A DNA stretch of 64,000 nt from a virus. The translations under genes were made by a program, and so were the position numbers. The stretch lies in IMG/VR virus record IMGVR_UViG_3300032397_000002, positions 1-64,000 of that record. One strand, given 5' to 3'. The first letter of the stretch is position 1. Every line of letters begins with the position of its first letter. The notes beneath the pieces were generated by a model. It made no database searches. It had not been told where the DNA came from and saw only the letters and a program-made list of their open reading frames with translations. Below, piece after piece: positions 46,362 to 54,646 of this stretch.

Positions 46362-46385
46362 TGTGGTGAGCCTCCATGGAAGGCA

Positions 46386-46414
46386 CCTTAACCAGAACCA
46401 GGTCCGAGAGTCAA
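46386..46414 (-). promoter_or_regulatory. Weak promoter TTGACT-17-TTAAGG
   Basis: -35 TTGACT (46414-46409) and -10 TTAAGG (46391-46386), spacer 17, upstream of the zinc-finger gene at 46361 with a normal leader. Confidence 0.5.
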
Positions 46415-46456
46415 GAGGCAATCTTCCTTGCATGGGTCACCAGGAGAACCGGTAAC

Positions 46457-49400
46457 ATGTCCATGATAATCGATGGCGTATTCGCCTCTGAGGCGATTGA
46501 TTCCAGTGGGGAAATCCTGGACGTAGAGGGCTGCGACATCAGTGACATGGAGCAGGGTTCTGGAGTCCTCAACTGGGAGCACCGAGGCGACGACGCCGCC
46601 GGCGCAAGTGCCAACGACATCATCGGCAAGGTGGTCTTCTGCAAGAAGATTTTTGGGCCCGAGGACTGTACCGACAGCCGCCAGCTGGAGTACTGGCAGA
46701 AGATACAACTCCCAATGATTTACGGTATTTGCAGGCTCTTTGATGGTTCGGGGCACCCAGGCGCCATCGCAGCTGCAGCCATGATTCGCGACTACCAGAA
46801 GAATGGCGAGCCCTTGCTCATCCGGTACAGCATCGAGGGCACCACCCTGGAGAAGGAGAAGGGCGGCAACCGGCTCCTGCGCTCCATTGCTCGTCGTGTC
46901 GCGGCTACCATTAAGCCCTGCAACAAGTCTTGTCACTCTGGCGTCATCGCTGACCCCAACGACCCCACGGTCAAGAAGCAAGAGCACGCCCACCCGAACT
47001 TCACCCCGCTGGGTGGCTCGATGGAGTGGGAAGGCAAGCCGGAGATCGACTCGCCTGAGATTCGCAAGGCTCTGGAGGCCGGCAACTACAATTCCGCCCC
47101 TGGCACCCTTACCGGTGGCTCAGCTCTGCAGCGGGAAGATGCTGGCCTGCGCAACCGCGTCAAGGCGGCTGTGCGGGACTGGGACCGCAAGACCCCGTTC
47201 AGGAAGTTCCTCAAGCACCGCCTGCCAGAGGCCAGTGATGGCTTCATTGACCGTTTCGCCGACCTGGTCCACGACTATACCGTCAAGAAGGCTCTGAAGG
47301 AGACCGTCAGAGAATACTTGGTGAAGAAAATCGTCGAGAAAGCCAAGGCGGCACCAAAAGCCAAGGCGTCAAAGCCGGCACCAGAGCCCAAGGCAGCAAA
47401 GGCCCCCAAGGCAGCAAAGCCGGCACCGGCACCAGCACCTGAGCCGGAATCCGATGTTGAAGTCGAGTCCGATGGCCCTCTGACTATCAAGGGCAAGCCT
47501 GTCCAGCTGAACCCCGGCATCGAGAAGCCCCACTTCGACGAGAACACCGGCGTACTCCACACTCCCAGGGGCAGCTTCCCTCTGTACATCCCCAGCCGGG
47601 ACAGAGACACCGCAGATGCAGGCCAGAAGTTCGCCAACATCATGGCTGACCCGAAGGTCGAGAAGTTCCATGACTACGCCATGGAGAACTGGGCCAAGGT
47701 TCACCAGCATCTGAAGGCCGGCACACTGCCTCCAGAGGTCGTGATGCACGGAGTGCTCTTCAGCCAGTTGAGCCCGAACACTCCGGTGCCCATGCAGGAG
47801 ATGATGTACGCCCACCTCGTGGACAGCATGAAGGCCACCGGTGCAGACCCACGACAGCCCGGCTTCAGCGACAAGCTCAAGCAGGACTGGTTCAATCGTG
47901 ACCAGCCCCAGAAGTTCCCTGACCACAGCCCGGAACACTGGGCCCGCTTGGGTGACCAGCTTCGTAACAAAATCGACTCGAAGCTCACTGGCCGCAAGGC
48001 TGGCGAGATCGGCGGCTTCATGCTCGCCAACAACAAGATGAAGAACATGGACCAGTACCATTCTCTTCACAACTCCCTGACGGAGCTGATTGGTCGCCAC
48101 CGTGCTGATGCTCGCTCTGGTGTTGAAGAACTGATGCACCACAAGACCCAGGCTGGCAATTGGGAGAACAAGCGCCGTCTCCGAACAGAGAAAGGCCAGA
48201 CTGACATTGGACCTTACACGGCAGGCCCCAGTGTTCCCGGCCTTGCAACCAAGACGGCCCGCTACACCTACGGCATGTTGGGCGGTGGCAATGTCACCGT
48301 GCCAGATACCCACTTCAGCCGCTACCTCTTTGGTCTTGACAAGCGCCAGGATGGGGCCACCATCCGACACCTCCGCAATGAGGTGCTCTGGAACCCCAAC
48401 AACGCCCACATCATGGGTGCCATCGACCGGTACTACGGCCAGCACCACGATGCCGTCAAGCACATGCTCCAGCACCCTCGGTGGGGGCACCTCTTCAAGG
48501 ACAACCCCGAAGACGCCATCTTCCCAGCTTTCTGGAAGAACTGGGTCGGCATTGTCCCCCATGAGGCAAGCCGAGGCATGAAGACTGGTGGCTTCAACGA
48601 GGCCACCGACCACCGTCCCTTCTGGGACGCTGTGGGTCCGTACATGAACAAGTCCGAGACTGGGATTGACACCAACCTGGCCGCTCAGACCGCGAAAACC
48701 CATGCGCAATGGGTTGAAAAATACGGCGAGATGCCGGCCCTCCTGATGTACTTCCACTACCTGGTGCCTCAGCTCTTGGCGTCCAGCGAGAAGGCAGCGA
48801 AGGCGCAACAGATTGTCAAGTTCGAGGAAGCGGCCATCGAGCTGTCGAAGGCAGACAGCATCACCCCGAGAGATCTCCAAGGGAATCGAATCCCAGCTTC
48901 GCAGGCTCCAGCGGCAGCTCCACGCCCCGAGGTGGCCTTTGACCCGAAGGTGGCTGAAGCCGCAAGACAGAGGGAAAATCCGAAGTACAGGAATCTCGAC
49001 GAAATCCCCGAGACGGTGCAGTTTGGCGGCAAGACCGTCAAGCCTGGCCACGGCTACATCCCTGGCGGGAAGCAGATGGCCTTCTTTGGCGCCACCCCTG
49101 AGCATCTCATCGGCGTTCCCCGCAACAAGGCTCAGTCCTGGACCACCGAGGACCTGATGAAGATCCCCAGGGCCAGCGGCGCGAGCGTCCAGCGGTACCC
49201 CGAGGAACTGGCGGCTCCCAGCATTGTCAGCCACGCTGTCCATGGCGTGCCTGAGTACACCCACCACGACGACGTTCGCAACCTGGTCGACGGGCTCGAC
49301 TTCGATGCCGAGAAACAGGCGAGCTTCTCTGGCATCAACCAGGCGCAGAGCTTCTGGACCGTGAACAAGGGCCACAAGGTCTACGTCAAGGCCAACCACG

Positions 49401-50149
49401 ACGAGAGCGACTTCGACGAGCCCAGCCGAGAAGGTCTGTACCACAACCTAGCCAGAGATTTCTTCGGCATGGGCAAGTACGTGACCCCGACGGGAGTCGT
49501 GCTGCACCCTCGCACTGGCCAGAAGCATGCGGTCATCGAGAATGTTGCTGGTGGTGAGCACCTGGATACCGAGAATCCCGAGCACAAGCAGACCATGCAA
49601 AACCTCATGGCCAGTGGCGAGCTGCACAAGATGACCATGATGAACGTCATCGCAGCCAACCATGACCGGCACCGTGGCAACTTCATGATGACTCCTGGGG
49701 GCCTGAAACTCATCGACCATGGCTACGCCTTCGCTGACAAGGACCTCCATGCGACCCCTACCCCGGACTACATCAAGTACCACGACCTGATGACGGCTTC
49801 TCCGAATGACCCGAGGGACCTGGCCAGCATCGAGGCAAAGCTCCGCTTCCACCCTGAAGCAGCGAAGTGGCTCCAGGCGCTGGACCCCCAGCAGCTTGAC
49901 ATGCAGATGCGGCGCCACGGTGTGCCAGAGAGGTACGTTGATGAGGCCCGCCGCCGGCTTGTCGCCCTCCAGCACGAGAGCCGCGACCCCAAGGCAACCA
50001 TCGTTTCGATGATGCGGGCTCCCTTCCACACCGCGTGGGTGCCACCGGAAGAGCGAAAAGGCCCCAAGCCCTCCAGCTCTGACTCCCAGTCCGATGTCTC
50101 GCCTCCACGTGGCGCCCCTGGACAAAAACCTCAAGGTAAGGTAGGGTAA
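46457..50149 (+). CDS. Large head protein: prohead-protease-like domain fused to kinase-like domain
   Basis: The 1230-residue protein starts MSMIIDGVFASEAID and continues VLNWEHRG, like XkdF-type prohead proteases (about 1-190). Residues 204-228 match the major capsid protein N-terminus (18/25 identical). An Ala/Pro/Lys linker (about 300-340) and a long helical region follow. The C-terminal part (about 950-1110) resembles PI3/4-kinase or HipA-like kinases: YVKANH (Lys), NHDRHRGNF (1068-1076) and LKLIDHGYAF with Asp1087. The catalytic protease residues are not certain. ATG 46457 has AGGAG upstream; ATG 46376 is possible. Confidence 0.72.
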   Translation: MSMIIDGVFASEAIDSSGEILDVEGCDISDMEQGSGVLNWEHRGDDAAGASANDIIGKVVFCKKIFGPEDCTDSRQLEYWQKIQLPMIYGICRLFDGSGHPGAIAAAAMIRDYQKNGEPLLIRYSIEGTTLEKEKGGNRLLRSIARRVAATIKPCNKSCHSGVIADPNDPTVKKQEHAHPNFTPLGGSMEWEGKPEIDSPEIRKALEAGNYNSAPGTLTGGSALQREDAGLRNRVKAAVRDWDRKTPFRKFLKHRLPEASDGFIDRFADLVHDYTVKKALKETVREYLVKKIVEKAKAAPKAKASKPAPEPKAAKAPKAAKPAPAPAPEPESDVEVESDGPLTIKGKPVQLNPGIEKPHFDENTGVLHTPRGSFPLYIPSRDRDTADAGQKFANIMADPKVEKFHDYAMENWAKVHQHLKAGTLPPEVVMHGVLFSQLSPNTPVPMQEMMYAHLVDSMKATGADPRQPGFSDKLKQDWFNRDQPQKFPDHSPEHWARLGDQLRNKIDSKLTGRKAGEIGGFMLANNKMKNMDQYHSLHNSLTELIGRHRADARSGVEELMHHKTQAGNWENKRRLRTEKGQTDIGPYTAGPSVPGLATKTARYTYGMLGGGNVTVPDTHFSRYLFGLDKRQDGATIRHLRNEVLWNPNNAHIMGAIDRYYGQHHDAVKHMLQHPRWGHLFKDNPEDAIFPAFWKNWVGIVPHEASRGMKTGGFNEATDHRPFWDAVGPYMNKSETGIDTNLAAQTAKTHAQWVEKYGEMPALLMYFHYLVPQLLASSEKAAKAQQIVKFEEAAIELSKADSITPRDLQGNRIPASQAPAAAPRPEVAFDPKVAEAARQRENPKYRNLDEIPETVQFGGKTVKPGHGYIPGGKQMAFFGATPEHLIGVPRNKAQSWTTEDLMKIPRASGASVQRYPEELAAPSIVSHAVHGVPEYTHHDDVRNLVDGLDFDAEKQASFSGINQAQSFWTVNKGHKVYVKANHDESDFDEPSREGLYHNLARDFFGMGKYVTPTGVVLHPRTGQKHAVIENVAGGEHLDTENPEHKQTMQNLMASGELHKMTMMNVIAANHDRHRGNFMMTPGGLKLIDHGYAFADKDLHATPTPDYIKYHDLMTASPNDPRDLASIEAKLRFHPEAAKWLQALDPQQLDMQMRRHGVPERYVDEARRRLVALQHESRDPKATIVSMMRAPFHTAWVPPEERKGPKPSSSDSQSDVSPPRGAPGQKPQGKVG

Positions 50150-50153
50150 GCTC

Positions 50154-51383
50154 ATGGAAGGCCTTCAAAACCTGTATCTTCTCTGTCAGATTCACCCCCA
50201 TGGGGATGAGCTGCACACGACCGTCATTGGCAAGTTCTACCTCGACAGCGAGCACTTCGAAGTCCTTGAAGACCACGTTGGCTGGTTGGGTGACCTGCAG
50301 AAGCAAAGCCCAGCAGAGGCCTCTCGCGTCATTTGGCGCCTGGCCAATAGCATGTACTACAAGGTCGTCAACATGGAGGACATGCGCCAGGGGAAGCATC
50401 CTGAGCTTATCAACGAGGAGCCCATACCCCCAACGGCCGGTCCAGAATCCCGTTTTGAGTACCACCGGGTAGGAATGCCTGAAGCGCAGCTCGTGGAGTT
50501 CCACGAAGGCAAGGCGTACCTCGATGGCCACCCGCTGTCACCCCAGGACCTACAGCATATGCTTGACAACGTACAAGCTGGTTCTGCTACTCTCGGATAC
50601 AAGCAGGCAGAAGATGACCTGCAGAAGTCCGAGGAGTTCTATATGACGTTGGCCAAGGTTGAACCACATCTCGACGCAGCCCTTCAGGGTCTCCGAGCAG
50701 CAGTCAAGGCGGGGCATGTACACCCTGACGTGCTCAAGCACCTCACCGGGGAGATTTTCACTGACTCGATGGTGAAGGGCATGGGCAACAAGAAGGCCTA
50801 CATGGACTTTCTCAGCCGGCCCAAGCAGGGCGTCCACATCCGCATGGACGGGAACGATTTCGGTGGCATCAACAAGGTCCATGGCTTCGAGACTGGCAAC
50901 AAGGCCATCACCGCCCTGGGCGGTGCAGTGCGCGAGGCCATGGATGAGGCTGTTGGTAGAGCCAACGGCAAGGCGTTTCGTATCGGTGGAGACGAGTTCC
51001 ATGCCTTCGTGCCATCTCACGAGCATGCAGCTCAATTTGCCAGGGCTCTTCGTCAGAAGCTGGAGGCTATCCCTGCTGTCGGTGGTACCCACAACCTGAG
51101 CATGAGCCTTGGTTTCGGGCACACACCAGACCACGCAGAGCTGGCCATGATAAATGCCAAGGGTGCCAAGAAAGCCAGTGGTGCCAAGCCTGGTCAGGCC
51201 AAGACCCACGCAGCCTCACAGGTGCCTGGGTACGAGGGACTCATTCCCACCGGTGCAGATCAACTGCCCCTGAAGCAGATTCCTGAGGCACCGGCACCCG
51301 TCGCTCCGGCACCAATCAAGACACCAGAGCAGCCCTCAACGCCGACGTCGATTCACCCGCCGGCGCTTGGGAAGCCTACCTAA
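50154..51383 (+). CDS. GGDEF-domain (diguanylate-cyclase-like) protein in head operon
   Basis: The 409-residue protein carries a GGDEF domain at about 207-345: MGNKKAYMDFL, VHIRMDGNDFGGINKVHGFETGN (metal Asp232), FRIGGDEFHAF (GGDEF at 278-282), then NLSMSLGFG and an AK..GAKKASG helix. The signature is intact, so nucleotidyl cyclase activity (c-di-GMP or similar) is possible. The RxxD inhibitory site is not conserved (RANG). The first 200 residues are helical and unfamiliar; the last 60 are Pro/Ala-rich. The gene starts five bases after the kinase-fused head protein, so the protein may be packaged. Confidence 0.8.
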   Translation: MEGLQNLYLLCQIHPHGDELHTTVIGKFYLDSEHFEVLEDHVGWLGDLQKQSPAEASRVIWRLANSMYYKVVNMEDMRQGKHPELINEEPIPPTAGPESRFEYHRVGMPEAQLVEFHEGKAYLDGHPLSPQDLQHMLDNVQAGSATLGYKQAEDDLQKSEEFYMTLAKVEPHLDAALQGLRAAVKAGHVHPDVLKHLTGEIFTDSMVKGMGNKKAYMDFLSRPKQGVHIRMDGNDFGGINKVHGFETGNKAITALGGAVREAMDEAVGRANGKAFRIGGDEFHAFVPSHEHAAQFARALRQKLEAIPAVGGTHNLSMSLGFGHTPDHAELAMINAKGAKKASGAKPGQAKTHAASQVPGYEGLIPTGADQLPLKQIPEAPAPVAPAPIKTPEQPSTPTSIHPPALGKPT

Positions 51384-51677
51384 GCAGTCCTTACATGTTC
51401 TCTTGTGTCCGTAGAACTGCAGGCTAGCTGCCAGCAGGTTCCGGCACTTGTTGCATTGCCTAAGTCCCTGAATTTCATTGCAGCTTTGACACCGGCCATT
51501 CTTGTCCAGGCGTCGATGCTCTGAGCAGATGCCGCAAGGCACTGGATATTTCTTCGCGAAGTAGGCACGGCTACGGCAGGCCTCGCATTGGCTCATGCGG
51601 CCACCGGGGCCACGGTCTGGCCTCTCGTGAAAGTCACTCAATGGCTTGGGTAGGCCGCAGAGGCTGCATTGCTTCAT
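51336..51677 (-). CDS. Multi-zinc-ribbon protein, HNH-like Cys pattern without clear catalytic His
   Basis: The 113-residue product begins KQCSLCGLPKPLSDF and has four CxxC pairs (CSLC, CEAC, CGIC with CQSC, CNKC with CKDC) and a very basic end. This is the zinc frame of small phage HNH proteins but no HNH catalytic core is seen. Its start follows a degenerate tRNA-like segment, and its 3' end overlaps the GGDEF gene by 48 bases. It may be a former homing endonuclease. Confidence 0.62.
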   Translation of the reverse strand: MKQCSLCGLPKPLSDFHERPDRGPGGRMSQCEACRSRAYFAKKYPVPCGICSEHRRLDKNGRCQSCNEIQGLRQCNKCRNLLAASLQFYGHKRTCKDCLGRLPKRRRVNRRRR

Positions 51678-51681
51678 GTCT

Positions 51682-51745
51682 GCAAGATTACTGCTTGCCA
51701 CTTTTTTGCTCCCAGACTGCCGCAATCTACCAGTTGAACGACTTT
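51682..51745 (-). pseudogene. Possible degenerate tRNA-like segment
   Basis: Read leftward, GTTCAACTGGTAGA resembles a D-arm and GCAAG-CAGTAAT-CTTGC forms a T-arm-sized stem and 7-base loop, but the TTC of the T loop is lost and no acceptor stem pairs. It lies directly before the zinc-ribbon gene. Confidence 0.3.
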
Positions 51746-51778
51746 CCCAACCCCCTTTGTTTCTGAGGAGAATCCACA

Positions 51779-52225
51779 ATGGCTCAATCGTACAAGTCCC
51801 AAGCTCTCGCTGCTGAACTCCGTGACGCGCTTCTGAAGCGTTTCGCAACCGTGTCGGCAATTCTGTTTGACACCGATGGTTCGCCGTACCTGCTCGTCGG
51901 AGCCGGCACCGCAGGCTCGCAGTCCGCACTCGTGAAGGTCAGCGCTGAGCAGCCGCTCGGTGTGGACGGCCTGGGCATGACCCCCCGCGCTTTCTCGCCG
52001 CACGTGATGCAGGTGGTTCTGGAGACCAGCACCATCGCCAACGTGGCTCTCATGACTGAGGCCAACAAGCTCGCCCTGATGGGTGAGGTTGAGAAGTGGG
52101 GCACCAAGATCGAGCTGTACATGAGCGCAAACACCAATGCAGTTGGGCCCGAGGACATTGTCAGCGGCAACCTGAAGGCAACCTGGGAAATCGCACTCAA
52201 GTGGCGGTCGATGTCGAACGCTTAA
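51779..52225 (+). CDS. Head decoration or auxiliary capsid protein candidate, 148 aa
   Basis: The product is a mixed alpha/beta protein (ILFDTDGSPYLLVGAGTAGSQSALVKV) with a strand-rich end, no catalytic motif, GAGGAGA upstream, and position before the scaffold-like and capsid genes. Capsid decoration is inferred from position and size. Confidence 0.6.
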   Translation: MAQSYKSQALAAELRDALLKRFATVSAILFDTDGSPYLLVGAGTAGSQSALVKVSAEQPLGVDGLGMTPRAFSPHVMQVVLETSTIANVALMTEANKLALMGEVEKWGTKIELYMSANTNAVGPEDIVSGNLKATWEIALKWRSMSNA

Positions 52226-53254: not shown

Positions 53255-54646
53255 ATGGCTACTGAAGTGACGCAAGCACTGCTCAAGGCTCTCGAAGCCG
53301 GCAACTACAACCAGGCTCCCAGCACTCTCGTGCAGGGTGGCTCCCTCCAGATTGAGGATCTCTCGCCGGTCATGCACAACGTGACCTTCGACGATTCGCA
53401 CATCAAGCTCCAGAAGATGGTCAAGGTGGACAGCTGCAAGTCGACCCTGGCGCAGTTCAACCGTCAGCTCAGCTACGGTGTCTTCGGCGGGTCGGCTCAG
53501 CTCGAAGGCGCAGTTGGCCAGGAAGAGACGAGCGACTTCGTGCGTATCGTGGTTGCGATGGCGTACTACTCGCACATTCGCCGGGTTTCAATCGTGGCGA
53601 ACATGGTCGACACTGCCGATGGCGTGAAGGCTGAAGAGCGGGCAGCGTCTGACGCGGCCAAGAAGCTCGCAGCTGACATCGAGTTCGATCTGTTCCGTGG
53701 CAAGGCTGACTTCTCGAACGGTGGTCTGTTCGACGGCAACCAGCTCGCCATCCCGGGTCTCCCCTCGATGCTCGGCCTCGATGCCCAGATTCGTCAGTCG
53801 GACTCGGAGCGCAATGCTACCGACCTGATGTTCGGCGAGTACGGCAGCGACGACACCGTGGTCATCAGCGGTGGCGGCACCCTCAGCCAGGACATGATTG
53901 AGGACGCCAGCGTGCGTTCGGCCATGAACCTCGGCTCGGCGGACAAGCTCCTGGTGGACCCCAAGGTCCTCTCGGCGTACAACAAGATCAGCTTCGGCAA
54001 GGAGCGCATCGTGCTGGCAGGTTCGGCACAGGATGCAACCGGCGCCGAGCTTCGCAAGCAGTGGGTCAGCAACGGTGTTGTCGGTCTTGAGGCCTCGCGC
54101 TTCCTGTCTGGCAAGACCCGCCCCTCGGCTGCACGCAGCAATGGTCCCTCTGCACCGACCATCGCGAGCACCACCCCGTCAGGCGCAAGCACCAGTCTCG
54201 CACTGGGCACCTACGTGTGGTACGTGACCTCTGTCAACGAGCTGGGTGAGTCGCCGAAGTCGGCTGCTGCATCGCAGGCTTGCTCGGCTGGCGACCAGGT
54301 CACCGTGGCCATCACGCCCCCGGGCACTGGCACTGTGCGCTTCTTCAATGTGTACCGCTCGGCAGCGGGTGGGTCGGCAGCATCGGCTCGCTTCATCGGC
54401 CGCGTGTCCTACACCGGCGCAAGCCCCACGAACTTCGTGGACCTGAACAACAAGCGGCCTGGTTTCGTGACCGGCTTCCTGGTTCAGGGCGACACCATGG
54501 CCATGAAGGAGCTGTCTCCCTACAGCCGCCTCAAGCTGGCTGTGTCGGACCTCAGCATTCCTGAGGCGCACTTCCGATTCTGCACCCTGGCTGTTCACGA
54601 GCCCCGCAAGAACGTGCTCATCGACAACCTTGTCGGCAGCTTCTAA
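53255..54646 (+). CDS. Major capsid protein with Ig-like insertion
   Basis: The 463-residue protein has an N-terminal arm (KALEAGNYNQAPSTL, 11-25), a long E-loop-like region, the HK97-type spine segment DAAKKLAADIEFDLFRGKAD and a strand-rich core. A fibronectin/Ig-like domain (PSAPTIASTTPSG ... TYVWYVTSVNELGESPKS, about 305-400) is inserted near the C-terminus, as in some capsid surface domains. It is the last gene before a strong terminator, and GAGGAGA precedes the ATG, which fits high expression. Confidence 0.82.
   Translation: MATEVTQALLKALEAGNYNQAPSTLVQGGSLQIEDLSPVMHNVTFDDSHIKLQKMVKVDSCKSTLAQFNRQLSYGVFGGSAQLEGAVGQEETSDFVRIVVAMAYYSHIRRVSIVANMVDTADGVKAEERAASDAAKKLAADIEFDLFRGKADFSNGGLFDGNQLAIPGLPSMLGLDAQIRQSDSERNATDLMFGEYGSDDTVVISGGGTLSQDMIEDASVRSAMNLGSADKLLVDPKVLSAYNKISFGKERIVLAGSAQDATGAELRKQWVSNGVVGLEASRFLSGKTRPSAARSNGPSAPTIASTTPSGASTSLALGTYVWYVTSVNELGESPKSAAASQACSAGDQVTVAITPPGTGTVRFFNVYRSAAGGSAASARFIGRVSYTGASPTNFVDLNNKRPGFVTGFLVQGDTMAMKELSPYSRLKLAVSDLSIPEAHFRFCTLAVHEPRKNVLIDNLVGSF

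Follow-up and report, generated by a model that had tools for sequence, protein, structure and literature searches.

A GGDEF-type cyclase linked to the head-maturation protease across a large-phage lineage and possibly delivered at infection

The GGDEF domain and its active site

Why would a large, myxophage-like virus keep a GGDEF nucleotidyl-cyclase domain among its head genes? The question is raised by the open reading frame (ORF) at 50154–51383 of the window, that is, of the 64,000-nt stretch analysed here (bases 1–64000 of the 168,622-bp virus record IMGVR_UViG_3300032397_000002 from IMG/VR). We propose, at roughly even odds (about 0.5), that this ORF encodes a GGDEF-type cyclic-dinucleotide synthase which serves as interchangeable cargo of the maturation protease, is packed in the prohead and is probably delivered at infection. 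Directly supported are the fold, the conserved core site, the linkage to the protease by fusion or operon, purifying selection and the modular replacement of the cargo. The parts of the ORF are the following.

50154–51383, plus strand: GGDEF-domain protein of 409 residues, from the ORF call and a Pfam GGDEF match; the sole GGDEF of the record
50154–50603, plus strand: N-domain of about 150 residues without known family; a gene of its own in Myxococcus phage Mx1 and other relatives
50754–51179, plus strand: GGDEF nucleotidyl-cyclase domain, residues 201–342, from Pfam, AlphaFold2 model, Foldseek and alignment
50898–50900, plus strand: codon of Asn249, which stands where canonical cyclases have the base-selecting Asp and Hypr enzymes a Ser, placed by alignments, with its role taken from PMC6456294
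50985–50999, plus strand: GGDEF pentapeptide, residues 278–282
51180–51380, plus strand: Pro/Ala-rich, rapidly evolving C-terminal tail

Residues 223–329 match the Pfam family PF00990 (E 4.9e-8, 33.3 bits against a curated cut-off of 23.8), and NCBIfam diguanylate-cyclase models match the protein as well (DgcN, E 8.7e-8). The pentapeptide is the only GG[DE]EF in a six-frame scan of the window, and only one GGDEF domain is present across the whole 168,622-bp record. An AlphaFold2 model built on six aligned phage homologues is fairly confident over the cyclase domain, with block means of the predicted local distance difference test (pLDDT) of 66–89 over residues 211–360, mostly above 80, and mostly 80–89 across residues 271–340; the N-terminal region and the tail are poorly modelled. 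The modelled domain has the secondary-structure order beta-alpha-alpha-beta-beta-alpha-beta-alpha, and its best 50 Foldseek matches in the PDB are all GGDEF-domain proteins (E from 4.4e-7), the solved cyclases WspR, PleD, DosC and SadC being matched at E 4e-7 to 1e-4. A chance GGDEF string is ruled out by this full profile and fold match. The profile search and the structure model by which the original prediction of an intact GGDEF domain was to be checked thus agree with it, the GGDEF stretch lying within the cyclase palm fold.

Sequence alignment with WspR (PDB) places D232, N240, N249 and GGDEF 278–282 on known active-site positions. The core set of an active diguanylate cyclase, comprising the metal Asp (D232), the guanine-contact Asn (N240), GG[DE]EF (278–282) and the phosphate Lys (K336), is found in full, together with S318-x-G320. 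Of 36 non-redundant homologues, 33 retain the metal Asp, 31 the base-contact Asn and 23 the exact pentapeptide; the third-position Asp of GGDEF and the Gly of SxG occur in all 36, and the Lys in all 34 that are readable at that position. Further, the ratio of nonsynonymous to synonymous substitution rates (dN/dS) among close relatives is 0.04–0.06 for the GGDEF domain vs. 0.10–0.24 for the tail, which indicates a maintained gene. Cumulatively, profile, model and conservation support a cyclase fold with an intact core active site, as originally claimed for GGDEF, the metal Asp, SLG and the Lys; the reported lack of the RxxD inhibitory site was likewise correct, as RANG occupies that spot.

A point overlooked earlier is the residue on the Watson-Crick face of the base. 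The GTP-selecting Asp of canonical cyclases is Asn249 in the window protein, so that the Ser or Thr expected of a Hypr enzyme is lacking there too. A place among Cas10 or mCpol proteins does not fit either, with E 0.017 for PADLOC Cas10 vs. 4.9e-8 for PF00990. At this position Asp is found in 24 of the 36 relatives, Mx1 included, and Asn in 9, the window included. The tree requires two to three changes for the Asn substitution but is weakly supported, and a single origin may still apply. Owing to the Asp-to-Asn change, it is uncertain from the sequence whether the product of the Asn249 lineage would be c-di-GMP (cyclic di-GMP); Asn may preserve the preference for GTP, broaden it or reduce activity. 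We know of no tested precedent for Asn at the base-selecting position. In the Hypr enzyme GacA the guanine-selecting residue is Ser348, and this Asp-to-Ser change widens purine use (PMC6456294); in mCpol, an S/N difference at a base-contact residue shifts the product mix (PMC12657218). By analogy, the window lineage might make cGAMP (cyclic GMP-AMP) or another purine dinucleotide that misleads or competes with host signalling by CBASS (cyclic-oligonucleotide-based antiphage signalling system), Panoptes or Hypr enzymes. We consider this distinctly improbable: most relatives, Mx1 among them, retain Asp, which suggests that the family overall is directed at GTP, and the D-to-S change mostly abolishes activity in canonical enzymes (PMC6456294).

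Linkage to the head-maturation protease and exchange of cargo

The GGDEF gene starts 4 nt behind the stop of a long ORF, which we call the carrier, and is followed by capsid genes.

46376–50149, plus strand: carrier protein, made up of head-maturation protease, motif like that of the major capsid protein (MCP), middle domain and PI3/4-kinase-like domain
46463–47005, plus strand: head-maturation protease domain, with invariant N-x-E-H and S-[IV]-E-G as catalytic His/Ser signature and with phrog_1028 matches in its family
47063–47143, plus strand: motif KALEAGNYNsAPgTLtgGsaLQrED, as at the MCP N-terminus
47549–48814, plus strand: middle domain, with an HhH-GPD-like motif read by eye and unconfirmed
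49169–50125, plus strand: PI3/PI4-kinase-like domain (PF00454, E 6.8e-6, 26.6 bits, just below the cut-off of 27.1)
53255–54646, plus strand: MCP (phrog_752, E 1.3e-43)

The head-maturation protease family phrog_1028 is matched by 7 of 14 members of the protease family (best E 2.6e-7), the window member by itself giving no match, and the Mx1 homologue is annotated as 'putative prohead protease'. The kinase-like domain has weak Foldseek matches to PI3Kgamma, CtkA and PI4KII. Between the GGDEF gene and the MCP lie a minus-strand Cys-rich ORF and then two plus-strand ORFs. The neighbouring ORFs accordingly bear out the placement originally described, between a kinase-fused head protein and the capsid genes; that protein proves to be the maturation protease itself, with a middle domain and a PI3/4-kinase-like domain.

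Myxococcus phage Mx1 (169,621 bp) holds the sole convincing homologue in the annotated phage collection, where two genes occupy the same place, a 150-aa hypothetical protein (WNM70323.1) and a 243-aa 'nucleotide cyclase' (WNM70324.1; OR576727.2). Further homologues came from IMG/VR, and a search with the carrier protein yielded 23 loci; of 25 related records scanned, 19 exceed the Pfam cut-off for GGDEF, with at most one match per record. The arrangements are listed below by the locus or contig labels of the related records, L002 being Mx1.

Protease-motif-middle-kinase, then an N-domain-GGDEF gene: the window, L003, L005, L006, L007, L025, L034, L047, L077
Protease-motif-middle-kinase, then N-domain and GGDEF as two genes: Mx1, L038, L108
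Protease-middle, then N-domain-GGDEF, kinase missing: L037, L043
Protease-kinase without middle domain: L030, L091, L103, L141
Single-ORF fusion of protease-middle-N-domain-GGDEF: L039, L040, L041, L042, L045, L049, L052, L053, L084, L107
Single-ORF fusion of protease-N-domain-GGDEF: L100

The association with the head is thus supported, beyond what the original prediction could draw on, by 11 contigs in which GGDEF is fused to the head-maturation protease in one ORF; L008 is an additional fused case, clipped by the contig start. Recent pickup of a host gene, or contamination, is ruled out by the same placement in about 30 phage loci with one GGDEF per record. Two GenBank phage matches, MT835727 and MT835905, have bacterial-type neighbourhoods with ATP-binding cassette (ABC) transporters and were therefore not taken to show that the cyclase is widespread among phages. 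L025 (CALMSM010000181.1) is binned to a Candidatus Saccharibacteria metagenome-assembled genome and has protease-kinase, GGDEF and MCP genes like those of the phages; given this gene set, it looks like a mis-binned phage contig.

The MCP was used as a query in a second survey so that loci were not picked by the cyclase. Among 49 non-redundant loci having both protease and MCP, GGDEF lies near the MCP in 31, and in 9 of those 31 it is fused to the protease. It is missing from the other 18, where the protease carries other C-terminal matter or is a short core only, as in L117. The protease of L130 (5723–7579, minus strand) ends in an S-AdoMet lyase domain (PF23780, E 1.5e-6), those of L102 and L121 have an HExxH zincin-like motif read by eye, and DUF6321 was found in L106 and L110; a partial, distant 'GGDEF' in L121 (E 0.001) was excluded from the carriers. 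The protease thus acts as a carrier whose C-terminal enzyme can be exchanged.

The consensus KALEAGNYNxAPxTLxxGxxLQxED is present twice in the window, directly after the protease domain (47063–47143) and at the MCP N-terminus (53285–53365), and tblastn with the Mx1 protease protein independently recovered the MCP copies from several of the records, at E 1e-6 to 3e-4. Going by its sequence and positions, the motif is possibly a maturation cleavage site, or a core-targeting or core-binding site, across the lineage.

The linkage could also be read as that of an active cyclase working late inside the cell and not retained in the mature virion, for instance to block superinfection or to change the dying cell. 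The intact core site and the position within the late head operon would suit such an enzyme, as would the fact that the cyclase has a gene of its own in both the window and Mx1. We nevertheless hold it unlikely, since in the 11 single-ORF fusions the domain is joined to a protein that should lie inside the prohead, and exchange with enzymes of an early counter-defence type, such as S-AdoMet lyase, suits delivery better.

A proposed model of packaging and delivery

Returning to the virion-delivered synthase, we infer from the observations above that the cyclase is packaged, cleaved and ejected, and likewise its activity, its product and its effect on the host. Tailed-phage maturation proteases work inside the prohead, and a cyclase covalently attached to one should therefore be inside too. 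The cargo follows the protease core, as a C-terminal part of one polypeptide or as the next gene at close spacing, and the cyclase would enter the prohead together with the protease. Judging by homology and operon position, separate-gene versions are likely taken in too, perhaps via the N-domain. During maturation the cargo would be freed or trimmed, perhaps at the motif common with the MCP N-terminus, and the cyclase would then probably be ejected along with the DNA, as are T4 Alt and N4 vRNAP. Within the newly infected cell it would make a cyclic dinucleotide that alters host physiology or disturbs nucleotide-based immunity. By our own estimate, a few tens of copies acting for ten minutes at 0.1 per second, a rate taken from general knowledge, would give some thousands of molecules, i.e. 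micromolar amounts. Packaged polyvalent effectors provide a predicted precedent (PMC5512222). EAL and PilZ domains are absent from nine of these phage records; a c-di-GMP circuit for which the phage itself brings the phosphodiesterase or the receptor was therefore rejected, and any product would act on host receptors.

In its fullest form, the proposal holds that covalent or operonic attachment to the protease gives a virion-delivered synthase whose signal appears within minutes, before phage gene expression, and reprograms the host or jams cyclic-nucleotide immunity, with a product in the window lineage that is possibly not c-di-GMP. We put this form forward tentatively, as somewhat less probable than the general proposal.

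Several observations weigh against the general proposal. The window protein scores 22.4 bits with TIGR00254, under the cut-off of 37.4, which marks it as a divergent GGDEF member. The window lineage has Gly in place of the Lys usual after the DxxxF motif (PleD K332), and together with Asn249 this may alter turnover or specificity. Packaging would not be automatic for the product of a separate gene, as in the window, the GGDEF protein itself lacks the common motif, and a virion enzyme would need to pass through the tail. Finally, active-site residues are lost in about 5 of the 36 relatives (L100, L114, L091, L103 and L139), so that some phages keep the fold without an obvious cyclase site.

These losses, along with that of the K332 equivalent in over half of the relatives and the adjacency to core and capsid genes, would equally fit a GGDEF fold that is not an enzyme and is retained for assembly, as a part of the prohead core that binds nucleotides or has a structural role. 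We judge such a role unlikely as well, given that most relatives, even at identities as low as about 40%, keep the metal Asp, Asn, GGDE and Lys, and that dN/dS of the domain is low; moreover, its absence from 18 of the 49 loci with the same protease and MCP indicates that it is not required for assembly as such.

Relation to known systems and neighbouring features

A close described parallel to the proposed delivered synthase is the class of polyvalent proteins of phages and conjugative elements, in which several unrelated enzymatic domains stand in one phage protein encoded with head genes; kinase, zincin, assemblin-like peptidase and, rarely, GGDEF domains are listed, and the proteins are predicted to be packaged and injected (PMC5512222). 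Iyer et al. (2017) predicted GGDEF in such proteins and proposed that cyclic nucleotides are used as signals (PMC5512222). Taken as at least two unrelated enzymatic domains in one polypeptide near head genes, this description fits both the upstream ORF (protease and kinase-like domain) and the relatives' single-ORF protease-middle-N-domain-GGDEF. The differences are that the assemblin-like peptidase was described as always C-terminal (PMC5512222), whereas here the maturation protease is N-terminal with its cargo behind the MCP-common motif, and that the cyclase, rare among polyvalent proteins, is common across one large-phage lineage.

The Mx1 cyclase is a direct homologue with the same core site, likewise flanked by the putative prohead protease and the MCP; it differs in being split over two genes (WNM70324.1/WNM70323.1) and in retaining Asp at the base-selecting position, and no function beyond its annotation name was found. 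With canonical diguanylate cyclases (PleD, WspR; PF00990) the window protein shares fold, metal Asp, base-contact Asn, GGDEF, SxG and Lys, but it lacks RxxD and any known sensor domain, has Asn at the base-selecting position and Gly at that of K332, and falls below the TIGR00254 cut-off. Hypr GGDEF proteins (GacA, a cGAMP synthase; PMC6456294) also have the central Asp in GGDEF and a change at the same base-contact position, to Ser there and to Asn in the window protein. mCpol/OptS (Panoptes) and the Cas10 palm belong to the same polymerase/cyclase superfamily and vary between S and N at a base-contact residue; unlike the phage protein, they are host defence proteins, mostly without GGDEF.

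Whether the protein had already been described, which the original prediction left undecided, can be answered in part: GenBank already lists the Mx1 homologue as a 'nucleotide cyclase' and the GGDEF polyvalent prediction exists (PMC5512222), while carriage of a cyclase by a prohead protease was not found in the literature searched, which omitted most subscription journals. New here is that cyclase and N-terminal maturation protease are consistently linked within a large-phage lineage; also new are the eleven one-ORF fusions, the motif common with the MCP, the cargo exchange and the Asn variant. If the proposal is true, phages deliver an enzyme that makes cyclic nucleotides at entry, beyond degrading or sponging those of the host, and a C-terminal cargo on the maturation protease is a simple packaging route, readable from sequence and usable to predict other injected phage enzymes. 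The cultured relative Mx1 makes the cyclase directly testable. This virulent, T-even-like phage with a contractile tail adsorbs at the poles of its host, and cells turn spherical after adsorption (PMC6070905); growth and development of Myxococcus xanthus depend on c-di-GMP, and it also makes cGAMP (PMC8844925). Motility of this host depends on c-di-GMP too.

The remaining observations concern the carrier and its surroundings. The middle domain contains VPGLATKTARYTYGMLGGGNVTVPDTHF, which resembles an HhH-GPD DNA glycosylase motif. Assignment to that family was rejected, the motif being read by eye only and profile searches against Pfam and PDB being negative; the listed Foldseek results for the domain, obtained with a low-confidence model, likewise lack an HhH-GPD match. 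In L044 and L047 the middle domain is interrupted at one shared point (about profile position 78–90), by about 650 aa in the former and about 400 aa in the latter, possibly an inserted domain. Mx1 encodes a second kinase-like-domain protein downstream of its head genes (L002, 28062–29987), and such proteins also occur in IMG/VR relatives, e.g. L085 and L087. Lastly, the conserved, zinc-ribbon-like Cys-rich ORF that separates the GGDEF gene from the capsid cluster (51336–51929, minus strand) has homologues in L003 (11183–11524, minus strand) and L008 (2915–3283, minus strand), and similar Cys-rich coding seemingly lies downstream of the Mx1 cyclase as well.
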